From the NCBI GenBank assembly GCA_902781215.1, contig CACZIO010000020.1, positions 1 through 47,576 on the forward strand: DNA of 47,576 bases. The letters are read 5' to 3'. This stretch comes from an uncultured Lachnospiraceae bacterium (GTDB lineage: Bacteria; Bacillota; Clostridia; Lachnospirales; Lachnospiraceae). Each line of letters begins with the position of its first letter. Within the stretch, counting starts at the first letter, position 1. The notes beneath the pieces were generated by a model. The model made no database searches. It saw only the letters and a program-made list of their open reading frames with translations, and had not been told where the DNA came from. The translations under genes and the position numbers were made by a program. Of the stretch, positions 19,323-34,476 are shown one piece after another.

Positions 19323-19755
19323 TCAGGCGACGGGCTGTTTTTTCAGGTATCCTGAAATCTCACCGATATTGGTGAGCTTGCGGTAGGAATCCTCCTCCGG
19401 CATCAGCAGGGTCGGTGCCTGGATGATGCTGTGGTGCTCCGCGAAGGAGGCGCCTTCTTTTTCATCCGCATAGACGACTCTGTAGTCAATGCCGGCCTTC
19501 TCCAGCATCTTCTTCGCCGCGCCGCAGTTGGGGCAGGTGTGGGTCGCGACCAAGATGGCCTGCTGACCGTCTGCACCGTTCTTCGCTGCGGGAGCAGTCT
19601 GCGCGGTCTGGCCCGCCTGATCTGCGGGGGCTGCCTGCAGGGTGGGCATTTCGGAGGCGCCTGCGCCGGCTGCGCTCACAAAAGCCTGTGCCATCTGCTT
19701 CTGCTGTACCGCCCAGGCTGCGCCGGCGGTGCCGGCCGTTCCGCGGATCGGCTTG
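19323..19755 (-). pseudogene. nrdD: displaced native 3' end of nrdD (thioredoxin-like domain)
   Basis: This is the host's own end of nrdD, cut off by the transposon. Read leftward from the target duplication it encodes the linker KPIRGTAGTAG..., an Ala/Gln-rich stretch and a thioredoxin-like domain with VATHTCPNCGAAKKML and QAPTLLMPEEDSYRKLTNIGEIS. It matches the transposon-encoded tail of the intact nrdD at about 46 of 73 positions. Joining position 19750 to 32206 gives the frame ...YAEKKMGKPIRGTAG... without a break, proving where it came from. The reading frame also stays open into the left transposon end up to an ATG at 19841 with GGGGA upstream, so a free-standing thioredoxin-like protein of 172 residues might be made. 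Confidence 0.88.
19751..19755. repeat. nrdD: target-site duplication, left copy (GCTTG)
   Basis: GCTTG immediately outside the left transposon end. The same five bases lie outside the right end at 32206-32210. Five-base duplications are characteristic of Tn7-like transposition. Confidence 0.88.
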
Positions 19756-19889
19756 TGTTTCCCTACAATTATAAATGAAACAAGATTGCCTATTTCCCCG
19801 AAGATTTTCGATATTTCTACAATTATAAACGAAATATGCATTTTGTATCCCCGGGATTTGTTATCGTTTTTCTACAATTATAAATGAAA
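19756..19889. repeat. left transposon end with three TnsB-site-like repeats
   Basis: Three copies of CTACAATTATAAAYGAAA at 19763-19780, 19817-19834 and 19872-19889, spaced 54 and 55 bp. The first starts 7 bp inside the terminus, exactly as at the right end. The complement TTTCRTTTATAATTGTAG matches the right-end repeat TTACGTTTTAAATTGTTG at about 14 of 18 positions. Confidence 0.88.
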
Positions 19890-19999
19890 CATGTTGTGGA
19901 ACAGCGTGTATACTACCATATGAAGGCCAACATGCTTCTATACTATACCACATCTTCCTTCGCATAACAAAGGGGATGCCTTCATAAAGCACAAAAAGA

Positions 20000-20018
20000 G
20001 CGCCGATATTCTCGGCGC
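20000..20018 (-). terminator. terminator of the transposon cargo operon
   Basis: GCGCCGA and TCGGCGC pair around five bases; on the minus strand CTCTTTTTG follows. It lies about 125 bp after the ribbon-helix-helix gene and before the left end repeats. Confidence 0.75.
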
Positions 20019-20142
20019 CCATTTTGTGTCTTCCCGACACAGCTTCGTCCGTATATGGAACACGGCATGCATCTCCATATTTGTAAATTCTCTGTACATG
20101 CAGAGATCCAAACAGATAGTTTTATATTCTTCTGAGTCAAAC

Positions 20143-20328
20143 TTACCCGAACGGGCTGCGTTCTTCTTCCGGCTTATCGAAATATTCCTTGAAAAATTTT
20201 TCCATTATCTTCTCAGTCGCTGCCGTCTTATTAAGGCCCGTCTCCTTACAGAACCGGTCAAGCTGGTCATATATATAAGAAGAAAGTTTTATGTTCAGGT
20301 ACCGGGCGTCCTTCTTTTCCCTGGGCAT
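20143..20328 (-). CDS. Ribbon-helix-helix (Arc/MetJ/CopG-like) small DNA-binding protein
   Basis: A 61-residue basic protein starting MPREKKDARYLNIKLSSYIY at the ATG 20328, with AGGAGAAG upstream; a longer in-frame reading overlaps the previous gene and has no site. The pattern YLNIKLSSYIYDQLDRFCKETGLNKTAATEKIMEKFF fits a short beta strand followed by two helices (RHH fold). The gene starts 11 bp after the restriction-modification gene stops and is surely cotranscribed. It may regulate that operon or the transposon; a lone antitoxin or conjugal regulator is possible. The function is inferred from fold only. Confidence 0.7.
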   Translation of the reverse strand: MPREKKDARYLNIKLSSYIYDQLDRFCKETGLNKTAATEKIMEKFFKEYFDKPEEERSPFG

Positions 20329-20339
20329 ATTTCTTCTCC

Positions 20340-23099
20340 TTATTTGCTGGTTGCTTGTACTTTTTCCTGATACAGTCGCATCAGCCACGCAACGCACGCC
20401 GCCTCATTCGTCTCTTTGATCGGCATGCCATAGGCCTGCATGACAGCTATGTCGTTGGCCTGGTGAGCTTTCCGCAGCTCCGGAGGCATCGTCAGAGGGT
20501 CGTAAAGGTCCGCCAACGAGCTATCAGGGTAGATAGAACGAGCATCGAGGATCCCCTGGGCGGTCTGCTCGATTCTCTGTTTTTGCTCCCTTGATGGCTC
20601 CGGCCACGGAAAGTTATTGTAAACAATATCCTTGCTATATCTATAATCTCCTTTCAAACGACCGCAAACAGCTCGCATCCATGACATGTGGACATTAGAT
20701 GTCAAGACGCCAAAATGATAAATGCTTGCATCCGGCACAATCTGTACCTGGTTCGTCGGTATTGTACTCCCGTCATAATACGCCATAGGTATGTATCGTC
20801 TACGCTCGCCTGACACGATTGGCATCGCAATGAACCTGCTCGGATTATTCGTGTCACGGAAGGTTGTTGGGGTATCTGCAAGTTTTTGTGTGCTTTTATC
20901 CTTCATTGCAAGACGGTTTTGCCGACAAAGTTCGACGCGCTCCATTATCCGCTTATCAGCCTTGATATCGGCAGGCGTCGCATCCACGAGCCAAAGCACA
21001 TAGCGCTTTTTGTTGTAAAGCATTTCAGACCCGCCAATCAGCTTTTTGACAAATCGGCATGATGCAAACTTCGGATAGTCGGCCTCCTCTATCTTCAAGG
21101 CATCGCCGTCCAAAGGAACATTTCCATTCCGCATCTTTGGTACATCACATATAGGCCTGGAATGGTTGGTAACGAATACATTAGGCGCATCAATAAGATA
21201 TCCGTTGATTCGGGTCACCTGATGTGGCTCACCTGTATCATCAAAGATAATCTTCGTAGAAACGTCTTGGTAGGAAAACCCAACAATGACACAATACACA
21301 TGTGCTTTGGCACTTGCTTCGCTGTCCCATATAAAGGTACGGTATGCAAAAATAATTTTGACTCCCAAAGGTAACAACTTCCTCCAGATGGCGGGGACCT
21401 GTTCTCCCTGACAAATGCTGTTTGTTGAGACGAACGCTGTTTTGATGTTCGTTCCTTCCATCAGCCTTGCAGCGAGGACGTACCAACAGGCGACATAATC
21501 CACATCTTTATAATCAAAAAATCTTGTTATATCCTGTTGTTGCTCTTTTGTCCTGTACCTGCGTCCTACGAAAGGTGGATTTCCGATGATGTAAGACAAC
21601 CTTTCGACAGGCACGTAATCTTTCCACTCCACTTTTAGCGCATTTTTTTCAGCAATCCCTTGATAATCCCTTAGCGGGAAGAAATCCATCTGCGTATGAA
21701 TGACATCCTCTGTTTCCCGCATCATCTGGCTTTCAGCAATCCAGAGCGCTGTTTTTGCGACTGCGACAGCAAAATCATTGATTTCAATTCCATAGAATTG
21801 ATGGATTGTTACTTTGATTGGGCTGTCTTCCTCAAATCCGAATGAAATCTGCCCGTCTGTCAGCTTACGATCAGCCGCTACTTTTAAGCGTAAGACTTCG
21901 TTTTCCAGTCGTCTCAAACATAGATATGTCTCCGTCAAAAAATTTCCGCTTCCACATGCCGGATCGAAAAACACCAGAGATGCTAACTTTCTCTGGAAAG
22001 AGTTCAAGCGCCTTTTTTGTGTTGCAAGGACAGAAATTCCGCGGATCTCCCGCATTTCTGCCTTCAGGTCATCTAAAAAAAGAGGATCAATCAGTTTGTG
22101 TATATTCTCGAGACTGGTATAATGCATGCCACCGGATCTGCGCGTCTCCGGATTAAGCGTTGACTCAAAAACTGCCCCAAAGATTGTGGGAGATATTTTG
22201 CTCCAATCGAAACGTGCAGCCTCCGCCAGCGTGTCCTTTAAGTCTTGGGTGATTTTAGGAATAATAATGTTTTCATCGGAAAAAAGCCCGCCATTGACAT
22301 AAGGAAAAGCCGCCAAATCATCATCTAGATACAGATCCGCTCGATTATCCAATGGAGTATCCAGTACCCGAAACATCTCCAAGAGCTTTCCTCTGATATC
22401 TCCTGGTCGATAACGCAGGATATATTTACTGAAAGAATCCTTAGATCCGAAAAGACCGGCATCCTCCGCATAAAAACAGAAGACTAAACGAACACACAAG
22501 ATATTGAGGGATTTTTGTGTGCGAGAGGCCAGCGGATCATTATATTGCTCAAGAAACCTATCACGTATTTTGCCAACGAGCTCTCCTGCAGCCTTTGATA
22601 ATTCGACTTCTTCTGTAATCTTGTTCTGTTTTTTGTTGACCAGGAAGTCCAATAAGTGATACTTCGTCTGCAGATCTGCCAAAGTCAACTTTACGGGCTC
22701 TGGCTGCATGACCGACATGTCATAAATCCAAACCTCGGCGAAATTGGATGTGATGATCCAGCGAGCTTTTTCTGCGTATGGGAGCAAGTTATCGTATTCC
22801 TTTGCTTGCTCATAAGGAGTCTTGTTGTCGTGCCCAGGCTGTGGCTTGTCCAATGGAATTCCAAGGCTTTTCTGCTCAATCACTACGTGCGTCTCGGGGA
22901 TATAGACATCGATCCGCTTCTTTGACTTTTCCCCGGCGACCTTCTTCTCAAACTCCACGCGCTCCGTCACACGTTCAACACCAAAAACATCCGAAAGCAG
23001 CTCGATCCAGTAAGACCTGGCATGCTCATCTTCTTTTCCCTTGCCGTTCCATCTATAGAAAAACTGCCGTGCAGCCTCTCTCTGCTGAGAATCTGTCAT
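20340..23099 (-). CDS. MmeI-like type IIL restriction-modification enzyme
   Basis: A single-chain enzyme that both methylates and cuts DNA, here probably anti-phage cargo. It has 919 residues, the usual MmeI size. The N-terminal nuclease motif is D64-X10-E75-Q-K77 (RIDVYIPETHVVIEQKS). A helical spacer follows, then the adenine-methyltransferase core with motif I DPACGSGNFL at D379 and motif IV NPPF at N507, and a C-terminal target-recognition region. GAGGAT lies before the ATG. The nearest alternatives (BREX PglX, DISARM methylase) lack this compact nuclease-methylase layout and their partner genes are absent. Base composition is like the rest of the transposon. Confidence 0.85.
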   Translation of the reverse strand: MTDSQQREAARQFFYRWNGKGKEDEHARSYWIELLSDVFGVERVTERVEFEKKVAGEKSKKRIDVYIPETHVVIEQKSLGIPLDKPQPGHDNKTPYEQAKEYDNLLPYAEKARWIITSNFAEVWIYDMSVMQPEPVKLTLADLQTKYHLLDFLVNKKQNKITEEVELSKAAGELVGKIRDRFLEQYNDPLASRTQKSLNILCVRLVFCFYAEDAGLFGSKDSFSKYILRYRPGDIRGKLLEMFRVLDTPLDNRADLYLDDDLAAFPYVNGGLFSDENIIIPKITQDLKDTLAEAARFDWSKISPTIFGAVFESTLNPETRRSGGMHYTSLENIHKLIDPLFLDDLKAEMREIRGISVLATQKRRLNSFQRKLASLVFFDPACGSGNFLTETYLCLRRLENEVLRLKVAADRKLTDGQISFGFEEDSPIKVTIHQFYGIEINDFAVAVAKTALWIAESQMMRETEDVIHTQMDFFPLRDYQGIAEKNALKVEWKDYVPVERLSYIIGNPPFVGRRYRTKEQQQDITRFFDYKDVDYVACWYVLAARLMEGTNIKTAFVSTNSICQGEQVPAIWRKLLPLGVKIIFAYRTFIWDSEASAKAHVYCVIVGFSYQDVSTKIIFDDTGEPHQVTRINGYLIDAPNVFVTNHSRPICDVPKMRNGNVPLDGDALKIEEADYPKFASCRFVKKLIGGSEMLYNKKRYVLWLVDATPADIKADKRIMERVELCRQNRLAMKDKSTQKLADTPTTFRDTNNPSRFIAMPIVSGERRRYIPMAYYDGSTIPTNQVQIVPDASIYHFGVLTSNVHMSWMRAVCGRLKGDYRYSKDIVYNNFPWPEPSREQKQRIEQTAQGILDARSIYPDSSLADLYDPLTMPPELRKAHQANDIAVMQAYGMPIKETNEAACVAWLMRLYQEKVQATSK

Positions 23100-23402
23100 A
23101 GTTTATCCTCGTTACTGTCCTTCTTAGCCCTTTGTCAGCCCTGCTATACTCATCTCTTCTTGCATGCGAAAGCAGACTGCAGAACCATTTCGTCGGACTT
23201 CCAGGCTCTTGCTGATAAGGGCTTATAGAAAGTAGGGGCCAAACCAGCAAGATACAGCATTTTGACCTGGTTACCTTCTACTCATTTGCCCGTATCGTCA
23301 ACACGTTTCAACAATATATTACACTTTATTCGAACATTTGTCCACTGTAAAGAAATATCTCCAGCATATTCTTTCTTTTCAATATGTTAATATGCATATC
23401 CG
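23100..23402. other. intergenic stretch between tnsC and cargo
   Basis: About 300 bp without a gene. On the minus strand it must hold the promoter of the restriction-modification gene; a TTGACG-like hexamer is visible near 23297, but no convincing -10 at the right spacing. It marks the border between the transposition module and the cargo module. Confidence 0.35.
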
Positions 23403-25037
23403 TCATTCATTATCTTCCAGGAATGATAATATTTCCGCAGGTGAGGCCTTTTTCTTCTTAGGTGCCTTTCTCTTATCTGTTTTCCCTGCGTTTTGAAGTT
23501 TTTTGAATGTCATCCTCATGATGGCTATATCATCATTGGACTTTTCTTTTCCCTCCTTGGAACCAAGTACCTTATCGACCATATTTTCTATCGTAGAAGC
23601 ATTGAACCTGTCGTCAATCTCCATGATCCTGCTCACAACGAACTGCTTCAGTTCTATGATCCGTTCCGCGTCTGGTGCCTTGTTGGCGTTCAGCGCCGCT
23701 TTCTCAGCGGCCTTTCTTTTCTCTTCCTGCGCGATCTGCTGCATATCATCATTGGCTTGTTTCGCGAGCTTCGCTCTTTCAGCTTCGACCTTCGGGTCTT
23801 TCAGGTTCGACAAAAGATCCATCACCCCCGGGTAATGCCGTTCCATCGTTCTCTGGACATAATCCGCATTGACCTTTGGCTTCCTCTGCGCTCGTACATA
23901 ATCTATGTTCATGTACATGTAAAGTCCTATAAGCTGATCAATGATCCCTTTTGTACAGTCGTACAGCTTATCGATGAGCTCCTCATCCGGTTCGACAAGT
24001 TTGTTAAACCACTGGTATTTAAACAATTGCTTCACATTATAATCAAACAGCACTCTGTTCTGGCAGTATACATCTGCGTGTATCTCCGCTCCCAGTCGCC
24101 TTGACTGCCGGAGGTTCCCCGAAAAGATCTTTCCATATGAGTCCTCAGTACCGACAACACCGAAGGCAACTTTTGTCTTATTGGACAGTTCGAGGATGCT
24201 CTCAAAAGAGTTTTCCAGCGTGGCATCAAAGTGTATGTGCTGGATCTCGTCAAAGATAATGATCCCAATGGCAAACTTCTCTATTAGTTGCCGCACCCTG
24301 TCAGTATAGACAGACAGAGTCCCCCGTTCTCCGGCGTCCAGTTCATTCTCATATACTGGCTTTACATTTCCAAGAGCACGGTCTATAGCAACGCCTATGT
24401 TCTTGTACAGGCCTCTGAAATTAGAATGCGGCGGGCACTGGACAACAAGATATACGATCTGCGGGTAGGTGGTCATCCCTTTCCCTTTGTGTATGATGTA
24501 CTGCGGATAGTTGCGGAACAATGTTTCAAGCGCTGATGACTTTCCGCACCCGGAATAGCCGAGCATCGTTATGCCGGCATTCGTTGCGGAAGCATCATTT
24601 CCAATAAGAACGCCGTCCGCTTGATGTTTTTGATTATGGGCTTCATATCCCAGACTTATGTCGCCGCCCTCGTCACGGAACATCGCTCGTGCCCGATAAG
24701 ACAGGACCAGCGCATTAAACACTTCATCTTCAAGTTCATAATTTAATGGCAGAGGGAACCGTACGTCCCTCAGTTTCAATATAGATAATATCTTTTCGTG
24801 TGGCTCCTTCTTTTTTTCTTCTTCGTACCTGTATCCGGGAATACCTCTCCGGCAGGCAATATCAAGTTCGCTCTGTATTCTTGGCTTTGGAAGCGCTTCT
24901 ATATACGGGTTTCCCGTATCCGTGCTGTAACTAACGTACCTTGCCTTTACTCCTCTCATTGATAGATAATCAACTGCATCATACTGTCTGCTGCCATTTT
25001 CCAGTTTTTCGTACTCATATTCTATAAATGAAGACAT
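23403..25037 (-). CDS. tnsC: TnsC-like AAA+ ATPase, transposition regulator
   Basis: ATP-dependent regulator that links target-bound TniQ/TnsD to the TnsAB transposase. The 544-residue protein has Walker A GYSGCGKSS (residues 160-168) and Walker B IIIFDEIQHI (D263-E264), the TnsC/TniB-type IQH after the acidic pair, within an AAA_22-like domain. Before the ATPase lies a ~140-residue N-terminal extension, and after it a charged Ala/Lys-rich region (about 440-475) and a lysine-rich C-terminus. GGGAGG precedes the ATG. It is the last gene of the tniQ-tnsA-tnsB-tnsC operon, 81 bp after tnsB. Confidence 0.92.
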   Translation of the reverse strand: MSSFIEYEYEKLENGSRQYDAVDYLSMRGVKARYVSYSTDTGNPYIEALPKPRIQSELDIACRRGIPGYRYEEEKKKEPHEKILSILKLRDVRFPLPLNYELEDEVFNALVLSYRARAMFRDEGGDISLGYEAHNQKHQADGVLIGNDASATNAGITMLGYSGCGKSSALETLFRNYPQYIIHKGKGMTTYPQIVYLVVQCPPHSNFRGLYKNIGVAIDRALGNVKPVYENELDAGERGTLSVYTDRVRQLIEKFAIGIIIFDEIQHIHFDATLENSFESILELSNKTKVAFGVVGTEDSYGKIFSGNLRQSRRLGAEIHADVYCQNRVLFDYNVKQLFKYQWFNKLVEPDEELIDKLYDCTKGIIDQLIGLYMYMNIDYVRAQRKPKVNADYVQRTMERHYPGVMDLLSNLKDPKVEAERAKLAKQANDDMQQIAQEEKRKAAEKAALNANKAPDAERIIELKQFVVSRIMEIDDRFNASTIENMVDKVLGSKEGKEKSNDDIAIMRMTFKKLQNAGKTDKRKAPKKKKASPAEILSFLEDNE

Positions 25038-25118
25038 TGTCTTCCTCCCTTGCCCCGTTGTCCGTATTTGTTAATATTTCCATAAAGCAGTACGTTATTT
25101 AGTTTTTTTGACGTGTGG

Positions 25119-27296
25119 TCAGCTGTCCTCCTCTTCGTATTCTCCTTCATAGTCGTAGAAATTACCGACCATATTGAGATATTCTTTTTCTGTCAGTTCC
25201 TGCCTTGGTTCCGTGGCTTCAGACGGTCCCGGCAAACCGATATCAATTATCTTTGTGCTGTCGGAACCTTCCCCGATAGCTTTCCCTTCTTCCTTAGCGA
25301 TCCTGTCGGTGATAGAGTCCATTCTGTTGATCAGCTGTTTTTCCTGCTCTCTCACCTTTTTCATGTTTGCAGTCTCTGCATATGTAGGGCTGTTAGCCTT
25401 GGCAGATTCAACAATATTTTCCACAAGGTCCGCCCGCATAGCGTCGATCTCCTCATTCCTTTGACGCGCTTCTTTGTTTTTGACTGCTATCATTTTGAAG
25501 TAATCTCTTGTTTCTTTGAATGTCAGTCCTTTAATATCCCCTTGCCAGCCGACCCCTTCATTCAGTTCCGCGTAGACCATGTTTCCAACAGAATCCGTGT
25601 AATAAATCCTGCTGTTATCCCTTGGGTCATATCTGACGCTTAGAGCATACTTTTTATTCTGGGCCCTGTACATACGGCCAAGGAGGTCCTCATCATCATA
25701 GTTTATATACGTGAGTCCTTTGAAATGGATGCCCTTCTTGTCGATCTTCCCCTGTTTTGGTATGAGCAGTTTATATAAATAATCTGTTCTGTCTGTGATC
25801 GGACGGGGAGCGCCTTTTGTTTTGCAGTAGTACTCCCACAGCACAGAAGGGGTAGAATCTATCCCGTCCTTTATCTCACAGGCACGAGGCTTATAGTTGT
25901 CCATATGTTTTTGGTTGTAGGACAGGATACAGATCAACAGCATCTTTGTGAAATCATGCACCGTAAGAACAGCCTGCTTGTGATGCTGGGAGTCATGCCT
26001 TTTCTGGATCTGCCCGGCACCCTCTGTGTAAGGATTGACCATCGTGTGGATCTGATGGAACCACTGTTCTATCATGCCTTTCATGCTTCCTGAACCCCCG
26101 GTGACAATGTGTCTGTTGATCCCGAGGGCATTACACAGCTTTTCGGCCGGATCGGATTTGTAATCAGAGCCCCGGTCAGAATAGAAATCCAAAGGCAGGA
26201 AATTGGAAGGGAAGAGCCGTTCGTCATTAAGATCGATGTCATATTTTGCACAAAACTCTTTTTTGTCCTCTCCAAGGTTCAGGAACAGGTTTGTATATCC
26301 GAGAAAACTGTTATTCTCCAAACTCACAGAGACCGCGACGACCGCATGTGTCAGCACATCCCTCATGCAGTAAACGATAGGCCTTCCGATAGTCTGGTTC
26401 GTTACGCTATTGAATAACGAGATCAGGGAAAGGTCTACTTCAAGAGAATCAGCTTCTACTTTTTCGCCCGGTGCTTCCACATTTGCGACATCCTCCGACA
26501 GAAGAAGCCTCTTGTTGTTGCGCTGTTCCATCTTTGATGTCTTGATCGCGTCATACTCTTCCCTGGGCAGGTTTTTATGGCAATAATAGTAGAACTGCCT
26601 GAATGTCGGCCTTTCATCGATCGGCAGCAGCCTGCTCTGTATTTTCCCTCCTACTACAACATCATGAAAAAAATATCTGTTGTTCATGGTGTCGTACGCT
26701 GCCTTGAAGCTCTTCGCTCTGCCTGATTTGTAAAAGCTAAGGCCATACTTGAACGCTTCTATGACTTCGGGAGTAAGGGGGCACCCGGCCGCGATCCCGA
26801 GATCTCCTTTTGATCCGCGTTTTTTACCCGCTTCACTGTCTCCGGTCTTGGGACGTTTCTTGCGAAGGAGCGATGACTCTTTCATCCCTGATTGGAGATA
26901 AGTTCGGCAAATACGCCAAAATCTCGGTCTTGTTAAGTTGTATTTGATCAGGATATCGTCTATTTCCTGTCTATGGAGTTTTCCATTTAGGCTCAAATAT
27001 GATGGAGCATATGTCGCATTTATATCCTTTATTATGTTTTTCCTTAATTCAAATGCCCTTTTTTCTGCTTCAGACAGCGTCGCTGTATCAACCACCGCCG
27101 CTTCAACATCTTTAATCACTCTTATATCTTCATTTAAAACACCAGTTCTGATTGCTTGAAGATCGTGTTCCCCAATGTTTATTTTGGGAGTATTCATCTG
27201 ACACAGTACGATGGACGGTGATGAAATATAAATAATCCTGTATATGCTTTTATCAATCTGCAGGATATCCCCGACCTGTATAACTACTTCGTTCAT
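25119..27296 (-). CDS. tnsB: TnsB-like DDE transposase
   Basis: The strand-transfer transposase, which binds the end repeats and joins 3' ends to the target. The 725-residue protein has an N-terminal DNA-binding part with helix-turn-helix character (about 90-260) and a retroviral-integrase-type core with D283 (EADSLEVDL), D374 (FYSDRGSDYKSD) and E410 (GSMKGMIEQWF), giving the D-35-E spacing expected. A Mu-type beta barrel and an acidic tail ending YEGEYEEEDS follow. Its ATG abuts the tnsA stop (TAAATG), so translation is coupled. Confidence 0.95.
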   Translation of the reverse strand: MNEVVIQVGDILQIDKSIYRIIYISSPSIVLCQMNTPKINIGEHDLQAIRTGVLNEDIRVIKDVEAAVVDTATLSEAEKRAFELRKNIIKDINATYAPSYLSLNGKLHRQEIDDILIKYNLTRPRFWRICRTYLQSGMKESSLLRKKRPKTGDSEAGKKRGSKGDLGIAAGCPLTPEVIEAFKYGLSFYKSGRAKSFKAAYDTMNNRYFFHDVVVGGKIQSRLLPIDERPTFRQFYYYCHKNLPREEYDAIKTSKMEQRNNKRLLLSEDVANVEAPGEKVEADSLEVDLSLISLFNSVTNQTIGRPIVYCMRDVLTHAVVAVSVSLENNSFLGYTNLFLNLGEDKKEFCAKYDIDLNDERLFPSNFLPLDFYSDRGSDYKSDPAEKLCNALGINRHIVTGGSGSMKGMIEQWFHQIHTMVNPYTEGAGQIQKRHDSQHHKQAVLTVHDFTKMLLICILSYNQKHMDNYKPRACEIKDGIDSTPSVLWEYYCKTKGAPRPITDRTDYLYKLLIPKQGKIDKKGIHFKGLTYINYDDEDLLGRMYRAQNKKYALSVRYDPRDNSRIYYTDSVGNMVYAELNEGVGWQGDIKGLTFKETRDYFKMIAVKNKEARQRNEEIDAMRADLVENIVESAKANSPTYAETANMKKVREQEKQLINRMDSITDRIAKEEGKAIGEGSDSTKIIDIGLPGPSEATEPRQELTEKEYLNMVGNFYDYEGEYEEEDS

Positions 27297-27986
27297 TTAG
27301 CCTCCCAATCTTAAGTGCTCTGTGACAAGTTCTCTGTAATCGATTGGCTTAAACAGGTCCACTGTTATTTGTTTTGTCGCGATCAGGTGTTTGACCCTTG
27401 AAATGTCATCGTGGACTTTGTTCTCGTCATAATAAACTACGATTCGACGGATATTGTTCACATATTGCGGGTCAAGGTCTTCCTTATAAAGGAGTTTCCA
27501 GGTGATCCCCTTCTCTGCCCAGTACTTCTTCTCGATAAGGAGTTTCTCAGCTGTCCGCATGGCCTGATTCATCTCGTACTCAGTTTTCGCGAGCTTATAA
27601 TCCACGTCCTTGCGGCTATCCTTGATCGAGAAAGCTTCCTGGTGCCCGTCGGCATAATCGACGAGCATATCCGTTGTCATGGTTGTATTTCTATCCTTGG
27701 GATGTCTAAAACCAAAAGCATCAGCGATCCTGACTGTATCTTCGGGTTCAAACAGCGGGAACTGCTCCCGTATATCGGTTACATTGTCATCCCACCTCAG
27801 AACATAATAATACCATTCTTCGCCCTGTGACAGGAGCTGTGTCGTTCTTCCGTGTTTCCAGTCTACGACATTGGCCGTGGTCCCGGCGCTGTTGAATTCC
27901 CTTATCTTTATCCAGGGCTTGTAGTTTGCACCATGCCCCTTTCCACGCCCTTCCCTGCGCTTGCCTGCTTCAGTTATCCTTGGCAT
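27297..27986 (-). CDS. tnsA: TnsA-like endonuclease
   Basis: Restriction-endonuclease-fold subunit that cleaves the 5' strands at transposon ends, making cut-and-paste movement possible. The 229-residue protein begins MPRITEAGKRREGRGKGHGANYKPW; the ATG at 27986 has GGAGG five bases upstream, better than the GTG two codons earlier. The catalytic layout is visible: E in SQGEEWYYYVLRWD, D in TTDMLVDYADG and the lysine in EAFSIKD. The typical C-terminal winged-helix part ends in TVDLFKPIDYRELV. The gene overlaps the end of tniQ by 17 bp. Confidence 0.92.
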   Translation of the reverse strand: MPRITEAGKRREGRGKGHGANYKPWIKIREFNSAGTTANVVDWKHGRTTQLLSQGEEWYYYVLRWDDNVTDIREQFPLFEPEDTVRIADAFGFRHPKDRNTTMTTDMLVDYADGHQEAFSIKDSRKDVDYKLAKTEYEMNQAMRTAEKLLIEKKYWAEKGITWKLLYKEDLDPQYVNNIRRIVVYYDENKVHDDISRVKHLIATKQITVDLFKPIDYRELVTEHLRLGG

Positions 27987-30435
27987 TTTCACCTCCTTCC
28001 ATATACAGCATATCTATGAGCCTCGTCATCATGGTCCTTATATTGGCTGTTCTGTATCCGTTGATAAGTTCGTCGAACTGTTTTCTTTCCGGAAGTTTTC
28101 CGCCGTTTTCCTCTATCAAATGCCGCCGGACTGCTGTTATCACCTCATCAACAGGAAGGGTTGTACACTGTTTGTACTGGACGAGGAAATCGACCGCCTC
28201 CAGAACAATGTAATTCTTATCGGTAATCTCAACCGGCATTCCTTTAATATGGATATCTTTCCCAAGAAAGCTTGTTTTTCTGTTTGCTGTTTTAAAAGAC
28301 TCCTTATTTGTAGCGATATGCCATGCTGTTGGCTTGTCAGCGAGCCCAAGCATGCCAGCATAACTTGCGCCCCTTAAAAAACCTATCCTGTGCCCATATC
28401 TCTTGAGGTAACGAGCAACAATAAGGTCATCATCGCTGAATGTCTTTTCGGATATGGTATAGATTCCCGTTGCATGGCGCCGGAGATGGTTTCCTTTCAC
28501 TAGACCTGATAGAACATCGTACAGCGCATCCCCCTGCAGTTCTTTGTATTGTATGTCTTCAGCAAATATGAGCTCATCCCCGAAATGTTCTGCAAGATAT
28601 GACAAAAGTCCTTCTGACTTTCGTTTGTTCCGCACAGGCTCTGGATCACCTTTGCCGTCTAATGGAAGCAGTGGAGAAGGCGTTGGCCGGGACAGCTCCT
28701 GCAGGGCCTTTGCTTTCAGCATCTCCCTGTTTTCGCCTGTTACATTATCATGTATCCTGTACATGTTTCTCGTTGGCCGCCCTGTAACCTCATAACGCCC
28801 AAGTGAATACTGCTTTACATACTCTGAAAATTCACGTTCTGTGAGAATCTTCCTGCATTTTCTGCACCTTTGTCCATCAAGGAAACGATGGGGCATATAC
28901 TCCTGTACGGTTTTACAGATATTGTGCCTTATCTTTACGGGAGTCCTTGCGCCTTCGTATGTGTCGAGCAGAGTATATTCGTTGCCTGTCAGGTCAGATA
29001 TGTCTTTTACCAGGTCGTTTGTTGTCCGAATATCGAGATGCCCCTGCCTCTGGCACACCCTGCATCTGGGTGATTCCAAAAATTTTTCATAGTGGATACT
29101 GAATTCACCACCGCATTTGTGACGGATCTTTACAGGTTTATCCGCACTTATGAATTCAACGAGGGAAAAACCTTCGTAATTTTCTATCTTTTCTTTCGCA
29201 ACGTCATAATCAACACGGTATCGGCAATCACACCTCACCCCTTCATACAGGAATGCTCTCGCTTTTAACGAGAGTTCTTTCCCACACCTTTGATGCAGAA
29301 GGGATACCTTCCTGTCCATACTGGTAAAAGGGCTCAATGGAGTATATTCTCCATCTCCTATGTTTTTGATGAGTTCCTCATATTGTTCCTGTAATGTCAG
29401 GTTTTTGCTGCATGATGGGCATTTCCATCCTGAGAGGAATCCGTAAGGCGACGTGCAGAATGTCTCTCCACACTTGTCATGCCTGAGCGTTACTATATCA
29501 TTTCGGTACCTGCTTACAAGAGAATACTCTCCTGCTCCCAGCTTCCGGAAGAACTCCTCCCGAACACGAGGGTCAACTTTTTCCTGAAGCGCTTTGGCTA
29601 CGGCTCTGGCATCCCCGTCGAATAAATACATCAAAACAGCCATGACAGATGAAGCTGAGAGATACCTGCTCCGCAGCTGTGCAGTAAAAAAAGTATCCAG
29701 CCTGTCAACTATGGCTGAATAGCCTGCCTGGGCCATTAGGCTTGCTGTTTCGTTCGTTTTTTTCTCAAGGATCAGGCTGACGACCTCTTTTTGGCTGCAA
29801 TCAGGCTTCTCGTCCATGAAATCCTTTGCAAAAACAGCATACTTATGTGCCAGTGACGGATCCGTCACATTGAGGCCTGTATATTTAGGGACTTTGTCAG
29901 GACATAAGTTTAAATATTTGTCCGTTATCTTTCCCAGGGCGCACCTATGCTTGTGGCACATCGTTACGCCGGGAAGATGATGAGCTCTGTGAAGAGTAAA
30001 ATACCCCTTATCCTGCAGTTCCCCGGCAACACATTCAGGGCATATATACAAACCGTCAATTGTCCCGTGGGGAACAGGAAAAAGGGCTTCCATCCGTTTA
30101 TCTGTATAAAATGCCTGGTTGATATACCTTTGGCGCTGTTCCTCCGGCATGAAGGGCGAAGTTCCAGTAAACGTAGATGTCCTTATGAACAGCTCTGACT
30201 CATCTGTTTCCTCGTGAACGCACTCAAGCGCCTTCCAAAAGAGTTCAAATGGGATCCGGTGGTCCATTTGAGGAAATGTTTTTCGGGTGCCGGGCTCGTT
30301 GGGATATATGAACGCCAATATGAATGATCTTGTATCTGAGATGACATTTTCCTTTGCCAGGCGGATGATCCACGAGGCAAATGTTTCATCCTCATCAGGC
30401 TCGATGATACGTGGTATTCTGATTATCTTGAACAC
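27970..30435 (-). CDS. tnsD: TniQ/TnsD-family target selector with tandem zinc-ribbon modules and DUF6088-like tail
   Basis: Target-site selector. Residues 1-175 are a TniQ domain with DETFASWIIRLAKEN and the zinc signature C132, C135, C160, H163 (YICPEC...HHLPGVTMCHKH). Then come four similar ~55-residue modules (about 300-345, 362-405, 420-465, 485-530), each a strand pair 'EYSL..' followed by H-x2-C and CxxC or CxC (RHDKCG...CPSC, LHQRCG...CDC, RHKCGG...CRVC, RHNIC...CRKC), and a fifth Cys-less module (546-580). Residues about 608-755 resemble the winged-helix plus DUF6088/AbiEi antitoxin-type domain (HATGIYTISEKTF, SYAGMLGLADKPTAWHIAT). The only in-frame start is a GTG lying inside the AGGAGGTG site; an ATA three codons later is better spaced, so the exact start is uncertain. 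First gene of the tns operon. Confidence 0.9.
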   Translation of the reverse strand: MFKIIRIPRIIEPDEDETFASWIIRLAKENVISDTRSFILAFIYPNEPGTRKTFPQMDHRIPFELFWKALECVHEETDESELFIRTSTFTGTSPFMPEEQRQRYINQAFYTDKRMEALFPVPHGTIDGLYICPECVAGELQDKGYFTLHRAHHLPGVTMCHKHRCALGKITDKYLNLCPDKVPKYTGLNVTDPSLAHKYAVFAKDFMDEKPDCSQKEVVSLILEKKTNETASLMAQAGYSAIVDRLDTFFTAQLRSRYLSASSVMAVLMYLFDGDARAVAKALQEKVDPRVREEFFRKLGAGEYSLVSRYRNDIVTLRHDKCGETFCTSPYGFLSGWKCPSCSKNLTLQEQYEELIKNIGDGEYTPLSPFTSMDRKVSLLHQRCGKELSLKARAFLYEGVRCDCRYRVDYDVAKEKIENYEGFSLVEFISADKPVKIRHKCGGEFSIHYEKFLESPRCRVCQRQGHLDIRTTNDLVKDISDLTGNEYTLLDTYEGARTPVKIRHNICKTVQEYMPHRFLDGQRCRKCRKILTEREFSEYVKQYSLGRYEVTGRPTRNMYRIHDNVTGENREMLKAKALQELSRPTPSPLLPLDGKGDPEPVRNKRKSEGLLSYLAEHFGDELIFAEDIQYKELQGDALYDVLSGLVKGNHLRRHATGIYTISEKTFSDDDLIVARYLKRYGHRIGFLRGASYAGMLGLADKPTAWHIATNKESFKTANRKTSFLGKDIHIKGMPVEITDKNYIVLEAVDFLVQYKQCTTLPVDEVITAVRRHLIEENGGKLPERKQFDELINGYRTANIRTMMTRLIDMLYMEGGENAKDN

Positions 30436-30549
30436 CTCCTTCGATTGTTATCTACTATTCGTTATGAGCATCTATATTATATTTTATTTTGTCTTAACGC
30501 TCAATATATTATATTTTATAATGTATTTTTTTAGTGTTATATTACTTTA

Positions 30550-30567
30550 TTACGTTTTAAATTGTAT
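30550..30567 (+). repeat. internal copy of the transposon end repeat
   Basis: TTACGTTTTAAATTGTAT, matching the right-end repeat at 32181-32198 at 16 of 18 positions, in the same orientation. It lies 115 bp upstream of tniQ, in the probable promoter region of the tns operon, about 1.6 kb from the right terminus. A partial copy (TTACGTTTT) follows at 30592. It could be a TnsB autoregulatory site or a relic of an older end. Confidence 0.65.
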
Positions 30568-30609
30568 TTTTCGTAGTTTTTAATCGCAATGTTACGTTTT
30601 CCCACAACA

Positions 30610-30639
30610 AAAAGGCACCTCCTCGTGGAGATGCCTTTT
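30610..30639. terminator. hairpin terminator upstream of the tns operon
   Basis: AAAAGGCACCTCC and GGAGATGCCTTTT pair with one mismatch around TCGT, with A- and T-runs on both sides. It would stop leftward transcription coming from nrdD or the small hypothetical gene before the tns promoter. Confidence 0.7.
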
Positions 30640-30720
30640 GTGTTATTTCATATAGTAGCGTTTGGCGGAGTTACTCGGAGTTCTCTCAGGACTCCGGATT
30701 CTCCCTTTCATTCAAGGGTC

Positions 30721-30989
30721 GTTACCTTGGACATCGGCAAAATCCACAAAGTGGAGTTTGCCAACGTTAAAGGTAACATACTGCTCCTTTTAGCGGTATT
30801 TTGTAAGCTGTTTTTGCCTTCTAAAAAGGTAACTATTGGAATTATTACGGGGTGGTATTATTTCCATCATATCGTAAATACCCTTTCCGCTTTTGCCAAC
30901 TTTTTTCTTCCAACATAACAGTAACGCTATTAAGAAGAACTTTTCCTCCATAAAGGTAACACATTATTTTTTGCCAATATATAGTAAAC
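30721..30989. repeat. left array of a second repeat family (GCCAACATAAAGGTAAC type)
   Basis: About five degenerate copies in one orientation: 30757-30777 (TTTGCCAACGTTAAAGGTAAC is the clearest, 21 bases, key parts GCCAAC and GGTAAC), 30811-30833, 30910-30925, 30944-30960 and 30967-30989. One copy in the opposite orientation at 30721 makes a 27-bp imperfect hairpin with the first (30721-30777). They mirror the array at 31566-31729. Confidence 0.7.
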
Positions 30990-31010
30990 ATGCTTGCCAA
31001 TAATTATGAG

Positions 31011-31388
31011 TCACTTTTTGCTGCGATTCATGAGCGCATGAATACGGTCAACAGGAAAACGATCCGGTATTTCCTGGATCCGGTATTTGCTTGGGGGGAG
31101 TTCTTTCAGCCCTGTCAATGACTTATATACTTCAACCGCCCTGCTGTCGATCGTGATAGTGCCTCCTCCCGCCCAGTGCCTGTCCTCTCCGTTTTTCTTC
31201 ACTCCGGAGATCCAGTACTCGTCCTGGGTTTCCACATCGATATAGTTACTGTATTCCCCGCTGTGTCTCCGGAAGGCATGGTCATTAAAATATACCATCC
31301 TTCCCGAACGGGATTCTTTTACAAACCCAATCCATGCCGGGCCGTTATCATTCCATCCGGTTTTCAGTTCAATATATTTTAGTTCCAT
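31011..31388 (-). CDS. Conserved hypothetical protein between inverted repeat arrays
   Basis: A 125-residue soluble protein. The core IELKTGWNDNGPAWIGFVKESRSGRMVYFND...YIDVETQDEYWISGVKKNGEDRHWAGGG is a widespread small-protein family that databases sometimes label, wrongly, as 1-deoxy-xylulose-5-phosphate synthase; I know of no proven function. The ribosome site is weak (GAGAG). It lies alone inside the transposon, flanked on both sides by arrays of the second repeat family, and does not resemble a transposition protein. Confidence 0.75.
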   Translation of the reverse strand: MELKYIELKTGWNDNGPAWIGFVKESRSGRMVYFNDHAFRRHSGEYSNYIDVETQDEYWISGVKKNGEDRHWAGGGTITIDSRAVEVYKSLTGLKELPPSKYRIQEIPDRFPVDRIHALMNRSKK

Positions 31389-31488
31389 TGGTCTATTCTC
31401 TCACTATTTTTACATTATAGGATATTTCCGTTTAAGATAGCACAAACAACGAGAGTATGCCTCGTCTCTCACAAAAAAAGACCGGAAA

Positions 31489-31504
31489 GCCTGTTTAAAC
31501 AGGC
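31489..31504 (-). terminator. palindromic hairpin, possible nrdD terminator
   Basis: GCCTGTTTAAACAGGC is a perfect palindrome followed on the minus strand by a CTTTTTTTG run (31479-31472). It lies 240 bp beyond the nrdD stop and could end that transcript before the small hypothetical gene. Confidence 0.5.
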
Positions 31505-31565
31505 CTCGATCCTGTATATTTCGTTCGTAAAGTGTCAGCCTCTTCATAATAAAACGCGTATTTTC

Positions 31566-31729
31566 GTTACCTATATGTTGGCAAAAAAATGGCGATTTTA
31601 TGGCAATATTTCGGTTACCATAAAATCACCATTACCTTTATGTTAGCACGCCAAAATGGAACCATTTTGGCAATTTTGGATAGTCGTTACCTTTATGTTG
31701 GAGTCGTTACCTTTTACGTTGGCAAAAAC
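31566..31729. repeat. right array of the second repeat family (GTTACCTTTATGTTGGC type)
   Basis: Four copies in the orientation opposite to the left array: 31566-31588, 31631-31648, 31686-31701 and 31706-31729. The last two form a 20-bp tandem repeat beginning AGTCGTTACCTTT. The array ends 16 bp before the nrdD stop codon. Together with 30721-30989 it frames a ~1.0-kb segment in the manner of multi-site transposon ends. Confidence 0.72.
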
Positions 31730-31744
31730 AACAAAGCAAAGCGG

Positions 31745-34318
31745 TCATGCGGTGACAGACGCCTTGGTGAACTTTGATATTTCACTTACATTTGTGAACT
31801 TCTTATACCCGTCTTCTGCCGGGACAAGAAGTGTCGGTGCCTGGACAATGTCGTTTTCCTTGGCGATTGCGGCACCATTTTTATCGTCCGCGTAGACGAC
31901 CTTATAAGTAAAGCCTGCCTTATCGAGCATCTTTTTGGCCGCGGCGCAGTTCGGGCATGTCTTTGTTACGACAAGGACGGCCCAAGGTTCTGCAGCTTTG
32001 CGGTTTGCCACATCTGCAACTGCTGCATCGACGATGTCACGATCCCCCTTGTAATCTGCAACGCCAGTCTGCTGGGAACTGTAGTTACCTTCATGATCCT
32101 CAAAGGACATCATATTACGTTTTGAATTGTCGTTTCCATCCTGGTGCTCCGAAGCGTATATTACGCTATTAATTGTCATATTACGTTTTAAATTGTTGCG
32201 TAATAGCTTGCCCATCTTCTTCTCCGCGTAGGTGCGGCGGTTCTTGAATTCAGAGACTTTGCCGTCGTTCCAGTTGCGGACCGGGCGGTAGTAGCCGGTG
32301 ATGCGGGAGTAGACCTCCGCATCCCTGCCGCAGTAAGGGCACTCGAAGTGCTTGCCGGAAATGTAGCCGTGGTCCACGCAGACCGAATAGGTCGGGGACA
32401 GGGTGTAATAAGGCAGGCGGAAGTTTTCGGCGATCTTGCGGACCAGGGTGCCGGCTGCCTTCCAGTCAGGCAGCTCCTGTCCCAGGAACCCGTGGAAGAC
32501 GGTGCCGGAGGTGTACATGGTCTGCATGTCGTCCTCCATCTCCAGCGCATCGAAGATGTCGTCCGTGTAGCCGACCGGCAGGTGGGTGCTGTTGGTGTAA
32601 TAGGGCGCGCCGCCGTTCTTCTCGGCGGTGATGATGTCCGGGAACTCCTCCGTGTCGTGCTTGGCGAAGCGGTAGGTCGTGGACTCTGCGGGTGTCGCCT
32701 CCAGGTTGTAGAGGTCGCCGTATTTCTCCTGATAGTCGGAGAGGCGGTCACGCATATGCTGCAGGACCTCCATGGCGAAGGCGTGGCCCAGGCGGCCGGT
32801 GATATCGCCGGGCAGCCATGCCGCGTTCTCGATCGCCTCGTTCATGCCCACGATGCCGATCGTGGAGAAGTGGTTGGTGAAGGTGCCCAGGTAGCGTCTC
32901 GTGTAGGGATAGAGGCCCTCATTCATGAGACGGGTGATGACCTGGCGCTTGACGCGCAGGGAGCGGGCCGCGATGTCCATGTAGCGGTCCAGCATGTTGT
33001 AGAACTCATCCGCGTTCTTTGCGATGTAGGCCATGCGGGGCAGGTTGAGCGTCACGACGCCGATGGAACCCGTGCTCTCGCCGGAGCCGAAATATCCGCC
33101 GCCCTTTTTGCGCAGCTCGCGCAGGTCAAGGCGGAGGCGGCAGCACATGGAGCGGACATCGGAGGGCTCCATGTCGGAGTTGACATAGTTGGAGAAATAG
33201 GGCGTGCCGTATTTGGCGGTCATCTCAAAGAGCAGGCGGTTGTTCTCGGTATCGCTCCAGTCAAAGTCCTTGGTAATGGAATATGTAGGAATGGGATACT
33301 GGAAGCCGCGGCCGTTGGCATCGCCCTGGATCATGGTCTCGATAAAAGCCTTGTTGACCATGTCCATTTCCTTCTTGCAGTCGCCGTAGGTGAAATCCTG
33401 GGGCTGGCCGCCGACGATGGCGGGCATGTCCTTCATGTCCGCGGGGACGGTCCAGTCGAGGGTCACGTTGGTAAAGGGCGCCTGGGTGCCCCAGCGGGAA
33501 GGCGTGTTCACGCCGTAGATAAAGGACTGGACGCACTGCAGGACATCCTGATAGGACAGGTTGTCGATCTTGACGAAGGGCGCCAGATAGGTATCGAAGG
33601 AGGAGAAGGCCTGCGCGCCTGCCCACTCATTCTGCATGATGCCCAGGAAGTTGACCATCTGGTTGCAGAGGGTGGAGAGGTGCTTGGCCGGCGCAGAGGT
33701 GATCCTGCCGGGCACGCCGCCAAGACCCTCCTGGATCAGCTGCTTGAGGCTCCAGCCCGCGCAGTAGCCGGTCAGCATGGAAAGGTCGTGCAGATGGATG
33801 AAACACTTGCGGTGGGCCTGGGCAATCTCATCGTCGTAGACCTCGGTCAGCCAGTAGTTGGCCGTGATGGCACCGGAATTGGACAGGATCAGGCCGCCGA
33901 CGCTCAGGGTGACCGTGGAATTCTCCTTGACGCGCCAGTCCTTCTCGGCACCGATATAGCCGTCGACCAGCTTCTTGTAGTCGAGCAGGGTCTGCTTGGT
34001 GTCGCGCACCTTCTGGTGCTGGCTGCGGTAGAGGATATAGCTCTTGGCTGTCCTGGGATAGCCCGCCTTCATCAGGACGCTCTCTACGTGGTCCTGGATC
34101 TCCTCGACCTCGGGCACCTTGACCTCTCCGGTCTGTCCCGCCGCGCCGTCGTGCATGCCGGTCATCAGCAACAGGCCCATGGCCCTCGAAACAGAGGACA
34201 CGTCCCTCGCGTCCACCTCTCCGGATGCGATAAATGCCTTGGCGATCGCATTCTCGATTTTCGTAATATCAAAGTCGACGATCCGTCCGTCGCGCTTCCT
34301 GATCTGTGTGATTCCCAT
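31745..34318 (-). CDS. nrdD: Anaerobic (class III) ribonucleoside-triphosphate reductase, host-transposon chimera
   Basis: Glycyl-radical enzyme that reduces ribonucleotides for DNA synthesis without oxygen. The 857-residue protein starts at ATG 34318 (MGITQIRKRDGRIVDFD), the start of an ATP-cone domain (about 1-95); the long catalytic domain follows with the Cys660-x2-Cys663 zinc pair and the glycyl-radical region RITGYYRPVRNWNDGK (Gly about 675). Residues 1-704 are host sequence. From residue 705 the coding sequence is the transposon's right end, an Asn/Asp-rich linker LLRNNLKRNMTINS..., then a thioredoxin-like domain with C788-PN-C791 and VQAPTLLVPAEDGYKKFTNVSEIS. Such a redoxin tail is normal in Clostridia NrdD and probably supplies electrons. 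No nrdG lies in the window. Confidence 0.93.
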   Translation of the reverse strand: MGITQIRKRDGRIVDFDITKIENAIAKAFIASGEVDARDVSSVSRAMGLLLMTGMHDGAAGQTGEVKVPEVEEIQDHVESVLMKAGYPRTAKSYILYRSQHQKVRDTKQTLLDYKKLVDGYIGAEKDWRVKENSTVTLSVGGLILSNSGAITANYWLTEVYDDEIAQAHRKCFIHLHDLSMLTGYCAGWSLKQLIQEGLGGVPGRITSAPAKHLSTLCNQMVNFLGIMQNEWAGAQAFSSFDTYLAPFVKIDNLSYQDVLQCVQSFIYGVNTPSRWGTQAPFTNVTLDWTVPADMKDMPAIVGGQPQDFTYGDCKKEMDMVNKAFIETMIQGDANGRGFQYPIPTYSITKDFDWSDTENNRLLFEMTAKYGTPYFSNYVNSDMEPSDVRSMCCRLRLDLRELRKKGGGYFGSGESTGSIGVVTLNLPRMAYIAKNADEFYNMLDRYMDIAARSLRVKRQVITRLMNEGLYPYTRRYLGTFTNHFSTIGIVGMNEAIENAAWLPGDITGRLGHAFAMEVLQHMRDRLSDYQEKYGDLYNLEATPAESTTYRFAKHDTEEFPDIITAEKNGGAPYYTNSTHLPVGYTDDIFDALEMEDDMQTMYTSGTVFHGFLGQELPDWKAAGTLVRKIAENFRLPYYTLSPTYSVCVDHGYISGKHFECPYCGRDAEVYSRITGYYRPVRNWNDGKVSEFKNRRTYAEKKMGKLLRNNLKRNMTINSVIYASEHQDGNDNSKRNMMSFEDHEGNYSSQQTGVADYKGDRDIVDAAVADVANRKAAEPWAVLVVTKTCPNCAAAKKMLDKAGFTYKVVYADDKNGAAIAKENDIVQAPTLLVPAEDGYKKFTNVSEISKFTKASVTA
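32115..32205. repeat. right transposon end with three TnsB-site-like repeats, inside nrdD coding sequence
   Basis: Repeats at 32115-32132 (TTACGTTTTGAATTGTCG), 32161-32178 (TTACGCTATTAATTGTCA) and 32181-32198 (TTACGTTTTAAATTGTTG). The last is 7 bp from the terminus. The last two are directly adjacent (20-bp period), a denser packing than at the left end, which is also the rule for Tn7 right ends. All three are translated in frame as the linker of the chimeric NrdD. Confidence 0.88.
32206..32210. repeat. nrdD: target-site duplication, right copy (GCTTG)
   Basis: Matches 19751-19755. On the coding strand it is CAAGC, spanning the Lys704 codon of nrdD, 129 bp after the codons of the CxxC zinc pair. 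Confidence 0.88.
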
Positions 34319-34424
34319 CTCCGTTCTCACCCCTTCTCTTGCTCTTATTGTTATTCCGTTCAGCCATGATCGTTTATAGCCAAATGGTCCGCCAGCCGGA
34401 TTTTCCGTCAGAGCGTGTATTACT

Positions 34425-34453
34425 AATATACCTATATTTTGTTCCGATTTCAA
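34425..34453 (-). promoter_or_regulatory. nrdD promoter
   Basis: On the minus strand TTGAAA (34453-34448) and TATATT (34430-34425) with 17 bp between them, about 107 bp before the nrdD ATG. The -10 region overlaps one NrdR-like box. Confidence 0.65.
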
Positions 34454-34476
34454 CAACAAATTACAACATCTTGTGT
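34429..34476. promoter_or_regulatory. paired NrdR-box-like sites
   Basis: TTACAACATCTTGTGT (34461-34476) agrees with the NrdR consensus ACACWATATCTWGTGT at about 13 of 16 positions; TACCTATATTTTGTTC (34429-34444) is a weaker partner. Their starts are 32 bp apart, the three-helical-turn spacing typical of NrdR box pairs, and they overlap the promoter. NrdR represses ribonucleotide reductase genes when dATP is plentiful. Confidence 0.6.

Follow-up and report, generated by a model that had tools for sequence, protein, structure and literature searches.

The window analysed here is the whole 47,576-nucleotide contig CACZIO010000020.1 (C20 of the 3.33-Mb source assembly GCA_902781215.1), which comes from an uncultured Lachnospiraceae bacterium. 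It contains a 12,450-bp Tn7-like transposon (positions 19756 to 32205, the window copy) inside nrdD, a minus-strand gene for an anaerobic ribonucleoside-triphosphate reductase with a C-terminal redoxin domain. TnsA, TnsB, TnsC and a TniQ/TnsD protein, the set that defines Tn7-like transposons, are encoded together in this element. The open frame of the chromosomal nrdD crosses the right end of the transposon and continues for 152 residues of element-borne tail, and the native end of the gene lies displaced on the other side. The interrupted gene and its flanks are composed as follows.

31745 to 34459, minus strand: nrdD in its present form, consisting of an ATP cone, an NRDD core (PRK08270 type), the element-borne linker and the redoxin domain; the start of this open reading frame was assigned mechanically
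31991 to 32203, minus strand: element-borne linker, tail residues 1 to 71, predicted to be disordered except for a short helix
31751 to 31981, minus strand: element-borne redoxin domain, tail residues 75 to 151, with the motif TCPNC
32206 to 32210: right copy of the target-site duplication, GCTTG; the counterpart in the second copy described below (L012) is CAAAC on both sides
19751 to 19755: left copy of the target-site duplication, GCTTG (CAAGC in the sense of nrdD)
19323 to 19750, minus strand: original 3' end of the host gene, now displaced, with its redoxin domain, to which the left end of the element adds an in-frame ATG at 19841

Removal on paper of the element and of one GCTTG copy restored a single open nrdD, which reads ...KKMGK/PIRGTAG... 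across the junction and ends in the native redoxin tail. The insertion point falls in linker codons of nrdD, within the reading frame of the target. An earlier interpretation made from the letters of this DNA (the sequence-only reading) had proposed a Tn7-like element that splits nrdD and re-supplies its 3' end, with GCTTG at both ends (19751-19755 and 32206-32210) and with flanks that join into a continuous frame (MGK/PIRG). The anatomy, the frames and the duplication confirm this proposal.

The two ends of the element carry repeats resembling TnsB-binding sites.

19756 to 19900: left end, with the tip TGTTTCCC and TnsB-like repeats at 19757-19782, 19811-19836 and 19866-19891 (spacing 54-55)
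32110 to 32205: right end, with TnsB-like repeats at 32176-32196, 32156-32176 and 32110-32130, translated in the nrdD frame

The repeats share an ACAATT core, number three per end and all point inward, with offsets from the tip of 10, 30 and 76 at the right end and of 10, 64 and 119 at the left end. Both features of Tn7-like ends, several TnsB-type repeats and tips of the form TGT...ACA, were found, TGT being present at the left tip and at the right tip of L012. Alignment of the two tips was gap-free over the 26 positions claimed by the sequence-only reading and gave 17 identities, a value not attained in 20,000 random draws of two 26-mers from the interior of the element. The right-end repeats all lie within the nrdD frame and are translated as LRNNLKRNMTINSVIYASEHQDGNDNSKRNM. 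Over 156 nt, the right end contains no stop codon in the nrdD frame and 4 and 7 in the other two; the left end of the window copy, like both ends of a more distant element (G025, see below), has stops in all frames. The right tip reads TATTACG in the window copy and TGTTACG in L012, and both codons specify leucine.

In its present form, the gene has the organization of a class III ribonucleotide reductase with a C-terminal redoxin, namely, an NRDD core followed by a CxxC-containing thioredoxin-fold domain. Modeling of the tail gave a confident thioredoxin-like domain for residues 75 to 151 and mostly very low confidence for residues 1 to 71 (mean predicted local distance difference test score of 67.6 overall). 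A fold search with this model returned seven PDB matches at an E value of ≤0.001, all thioredoxin-like folds, headed by a b' domain of the protein disulfide isomerase type; their query-normalized template modeling scores were low (0.35 to 0.44) because about half of the tail model is disordered. Against the Glutaredoxin family of Pfam the tail scored 22.5, slightly below the cut-off of 22.9. CPNC is invariant in 25 of 25 aligned tails, and the element tail retains both this motif and the cis-Pro region. Identity between the element-borne and displaced tails amounts to 63.0% over 73 residues, bearing out the figure of about 46 of 73 given initially, and within the set of tails compared the element tail comes closest to native ones of the same genus (≤67.5% identity). 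The reading frame of the displaced native piece is uninterrupted, and it receives an in-frame ATG from the left end not only in the window but also, at the corresponding place, in L012 and in a third locus (L013). One promoter-like site was detected for the ATG at 19841, which is chance level (shuffle mean, 1.2); the displaced redoxin may be translated from this codon.

A search of genome contigs with the TniQ of the window led to two loci. L012 (RUG12263; taken as the same contig as G308:C39 and as locus L015, with identical coordinates) is a complete second insertion at the same nrdD codon, with its own duplication, CAAAC. L013 (UBA3821) is half-assembled and comprises the left part only, its left tip being followed by CAAAC at that codon. 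The sequence-only reading leads one to expect homologous elements that occupy this nrdD codon, are flanked by a 5-bp duplication and bring a redoxin tail of their own; L012 is such an element, and L013 provides the left half of one. The window copy and L012 are nearly identical in the right end plus tail (459/461 bp), the left end (394/395), tniQ (2450/2466, 99.4%), tnsA (691/696, 99.3%) and tnsB (2151/2178, 98.8%), with lower values for tnsC (1526/1635, 93.3%) and for a gene encoding an MmeI-type enzyme (1684/2724, 61.8%). In the host DNA, identity is 87.4% for the nrdD core outside the element (1808/2069 bp) and 68.4% for the displaced tails (269/393). Divergence starts at the duplication, and synonymous differences extend right up to it. 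Such a pattern would be expected if a single mobile unit that includes the tail had inserted twice independently. The competing view is that of a single ancestral insertion inherited vertically, without repeated homing, the native end having been duplicated or replaced later. It would suit the membership of both hosts in one genus and the possibility that L012 and L013 are one shared insertion, which is raised because their displaced tails are 97.0% identical and the same half of the duplication is present. Vertical inheritance is at odds with an element that is ~99% identical (tniQ, tnsA, tnsB and tail) next to nrdD sequences that are 87.4% identical, with the different duplications and with the uninterrupted nrdD of related species; already disfavoured on these grounds, it strikes us as extremely improbable.

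The uninterrupted state was examined in 61 related genomes, of which 30 gave nrdD matches; 30 loci were kept. Twenty-six of these were read to the 3' end (L039, L040, L042 and L043 stop short), and addition of L012 and L045 brought the comparison to 28 rows: 3 with the element (the window, L015 and L012), 20 uninterrupted with a tail and 5 without a CPNC redoxin tail (L032, L034, L035, L037 and L045). In each of the 20 uninterrupted redoxin-type genes whose 3' end was reached, the CPNC redoxin tail is in frame; 6 of them (L016, L017, L018, L019, L036 and L041) contain the KP(I/V)RG junction that also occurs in the displaced pieces. The element-type linker was found in none of the 20. Relatives whose uninterrupted nrdD already ended in the transposon-type tail would have spoken against the sequence-only reading; none was seen among these 20 genes.

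A related element occurs in G025, a genome of the same family and another genus, with identities of 32% for TniQ, 46% for TnsA, 37% for TnsB and 39% for TnsC. It lies downstream of a PRK09263-type nrdD that is tail-less and ends right after the glycyl-radical segment; its right tip, TGTAAATC, is located 15 bp past the TAA codon and its left tip, TGTTAATC, at L044:1312. The conserved codons upstream of the insertion occupy the following place in the window.

32233 to 32272, minus strand: WNDGKVSEFKNRR codons of nrdD, the site at which TniQ is proposed to bind, its Asn codon being separated from the right tip by 64 nt

With the initial base of the Asn codon in the WNxGK motif as the starting point, the distance to the right tip is likewise 64 nt in L012 and 63 nt in G025. 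Tn7 TnsD is described as reading a 36-bp site at the end of its target gene that consists of conserved codons for the active site, and the element inserts ~25 bp farther on (PMC2918618). By analogy, the WNxGKxxE codons of nrdD lie at a comparable range and would be read by TniQ. A selector with a fixed distance that meets a longer gene explains both the site in the window and that in G025.

These observations can be assembled into a mechanism. A Tn7-like cut-and-paste element would use its TniQ/TnsD protein to select the 3' portion of the catalytic core of nrdD and would insert, as Tn7 does, at a fixed distance downstream of the codons read, with its right end towards the target gene. For an nrdD ending soon after the glycyl-radical segment, such as that of G025, the insertion point would be past the stop codon; for the nrdD of the host lineage, which continues into a linker and a redoxin, the same distance would lead into the linker and the redoxin would be cut off. 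The element would compensate for this loss by a right end without stop codons in the frame of nrdD, with the TnsB sites translated into a flexible linker, and by a complete redoxin domain behind it. Every insertion would exchange the host redoxin for that of the element; the fusion would be expressed and active, and the tail would be under selection. Capture of the nrdD end of an earlier host is the simplest putative source of the tail, since the latter is homologous to nrdD tails. As a whole, we consider it highly probable that a fixed-reach nrdD selector combined with an element-supplied redoxin end accounts for the locus. A more specific history is likely, if less securely so: a natural "prosthetic" Tn7 lineage in which the fixed-distance selector moved from tail-less to redoxin-tailed genes, the right end became a coding linker followed by a captured redoxin, and each insertion generates a chimeric ribonucleotide reductase, the displaced redoxin perhaps still being translated from the ATG of the left end.

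Several observations weigh against this explanation. Complete insertions number two, both in one genus and with near-identical elements, and selection on the tail is therefore not measurable from them. The tree of redoxin domains, with long branches and few firm forks, gives the element tail no firm placement. The presumed duplication of G025 matches at 4 of 5 bases only (AATAT/AAAAT), the full 5 bp being found for CAAGC in the window and CAAAC in L012. Over the codons proposed to be read, the DNA of the window and that of G025 are identical at only 21 of 45 positions, and for this reason the common feature of the two sites appears to be position and protein motif more than DNA. The window copy may be impaired and no longer mobile because its right tip has TA, the usual G having been lost, where L012 has TG. 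Among 5,000 dinucleotide-shuffled versions of the right end, 159 (3.2%) were open in the nrdD frame as well; an open right-end frame is only moderately unlikely by chance and is, taken alone, modest evidence. This frequency and the fact that only near-identical elements are known would be compatible with a chance fusion, in which a free redoxin gene near the right end was joined to nrdD by one lucky in-frame landing, the tail being cargo with no role in target use. Such a fusion is very unlikely in view of the homology of the tail to nrdD tails (≤67.5% identity), of a tail that does not need its own start and of the recurrence of the same in-frame fusion, with a different duplication, at the identical codon of another host.

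A further point on that side is a second, uninterrupted NrdD in the same genome (G000:C46:4914-6731, L070; open reading frame of 796 aa). This protein is PRK09263-like, with 54.8% identity to the G025 protein, is of the formate type by family resemblance and has a similar WNxGR segment without an insertion. The second intact nrdD lowers the need for repair, and the description of the attachment site as an essential gene in the sequence-only reading is not supported. The idea that the interrupted gene is the only ribonucleotide reductase of the cell was also dropped, two NRDD places having been found, though a search of the source genome for the class I/II large subunit (PF02867) gave no match (0 of 1 genome). 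If the intact NrdD did the work, the interrupted gene could be dead or dispensable and the fused tail free of selection. We regard this as unlikely: the interrupted nrdD is open over its full length with complete NRDD and ATP-cone matches, and the element tail has kept the CPNC motif and the cis-Pro region, which are present in all 25 aligned rows. The proposal of an attachment site inside a reading frame, paid for with a gene end of the element's own, is supported at the sequence level by L012, L013 and the native tails of uninterrupted relatives. The element is real, appears to be mobile and is a variant of Tn7-type homing, and the initial interpretation stands except for the word "essential."

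Some tyrosine-integrase islands bring along the lost 3' end of tRNA or protein genes, and their site-specific recombinase relies on sequence identity with the host. The nrdD element differs from them by its DDE transposase, its 5-bp duplication and its diverged tail. Searches of the open-licence literature gave no match for islands restoring gene ends and no paper combining Tn7-like elements with nrdD or anaerobic ribonucleoside-triphosphate reductase; titles and abstracts in that literature held no description of a Tn7-like element completing its target gene, consistent with the initial remark that the strategy was not described for such elements. Tn7 itself, at attTn7 next to glmS, shares TnsABC with a TniQ-type selector, the 5-bp duplication and a right end facing the target gene, but inserts ~20 bp past the glmS stop codon and leaves the gene whole (PMC2918618), whereas the nrdD element inserts inside the frame and supplies the gene end. 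A review table of Tn7-like sites names glmS, yhiN, comM, parE and tRNA (PMC11406308), and target selectors are treated in PMC10293859. Tn6022/AbaR elements also insert within a reading frame, that of comM, but inactivate it (PMC11406308, PMC10293859), whereas nrdD is completed. The G025 element has a related TniQ, the same orientation and a similar distance to the conserved Asn codon, but the nrdD next to it, of the PRK09263 type, lacks a tail, and the element lies beyond the stop codon without an nrdD end of its own. The closest likeness to the translated right end is found in CRISPR-associated transposons (CAST) engineered for protein tagging, in which a stop-free right end is translated as a linker between the target protein and a carried domain (PMC10201428). 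Those ends are man-made, whereas the nrdD element arose naturally and its domain takes the place of the one severed by the insertion.

Tn7-like elements are understood as using safe sites beside genes; the nrdD element uses a site within a gene and carries the repair along. With it, the range of attachment sites that can be used becomes wider; it shows that the ends of a transposon are able to evolve into translated sequence, and it is a natural parallel to the ends engineered in CAST systems for in-frame tagging. It would also provide a route for the transposon-driven exchange of a domain of a host enzyme, with domain swapping, if the mechanism is true, at every move. Elements of this type would escape surveys restricted to intergenic ends; a large cargo survey, for example, left out coding sequence when locating ends (PMC8649781).

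Across the samples searched, such elements proved rare. In the family sample, TniQ at an E value of 1e-10 matched 8 of 299 genomes including that of the window; G025 gave the only other strong and near-full-length match, and 4 matches cover the C-terminal part only. The wider samples yielded 1 of 392 genomes for the order (the window only), 2 of 391 for the class and 2 of 388 for the phylum (the other being a C-terminal match only). No TniQ match was found in viral contigs, and none covering 80% of the query was found in plasmids (12 records) or phages (228 records). Within the genus, TnsB matched 8 of 62 genomes, two at 99 to 100% (G000 and G308) and six at 25 to 30%. Among the latter level of similarity, G366 of the same genus has five TnsB-matching places at 26 to 27% (L054, L058, L060, L061 and L062), four with the same score, which suggests a multi-copy transposase family. 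Elements in G117, G205 and G993 were considered as further nrdD cases and rejected, nrdD being absent from the stretches fetched (G117:C5:3000-40000, G205:C6:42001-80000 and G993:C1:298001-378000). Homologous elements at unrelated sites without an nrdD piece, which would contradict the sequence-only reading, are represented by these far relatives alone (TniQ ~25 to 31%) and by none of the close ones.

The element carries the following genes.

31011 to 31388, minus strand: open reading frame of 125 aa, matching no family, retained in L012
27970 to 30435, minus strand: tniQ, TnsD-like target selector of 821 aa (Pfam TniQ)
27297 to 27992, minus strand: tnsA (Pfam and a relative of solved structure)
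25119 to 27296, minus strand: tnsB (Pfam and a relative of solved structure)
23403 to 25037, minus strand: tnsC (Pfam and a relative of solved structure)
20340 to 23099, minus strand: MmeI-type restriction-modification enzyme, cargo (five MmeI Pfam domains)

The closest relatives of solved structure are the proteins of Tn7 itself for TnsB (E value of 2.4e-35), TnsA (3.1e-29) and TnsC (9e-15); for TniQ none was found at an E value of 0.1. The Pfam matches of the open reading frames scanned included no cas families, no dedicated CRISPR/cas search having been made. The MmeI-type cargo is strongly divergent among the copies (window, 20340-23099; L012:15070-17859; L013:5490-8291) although the core genes are ~99% identical, and tnsC (93.3%) and the tnsB of L013 (~85%) also appear mosaic. 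Between the tail and the 125-aa open reading frame, L012 has two extra genes that the window copy lacks, encoding a second TniQ-domain protein of 626 aa (L012:3561-5441) and an excisionase-like DNA-binding protein (L012:5628-6347), the excisionase-like match being just below the cut-off.

The middle of TniQ (28726-29688, minus strand; residues ~250 to 570) contains a zinc-ribbon-like repeat array, GEYxLxSxY...H..CG...FL.G..CP.C, which matches phage proteins annotated as HNH endonucleases; one of these (L073) matches the treble-clef domains CapR and DUF4379 of Pfam. The array may be a DNA-reading module common to transposon and phage homing proteins. The C-terminal part of TniQ (27973-28638, minus strand; residues ~610 to 753) resembles stand-alone proteins in G051, G077, G182, G198 and G1092, as well as a plasmid protein annotated as DUF6088.

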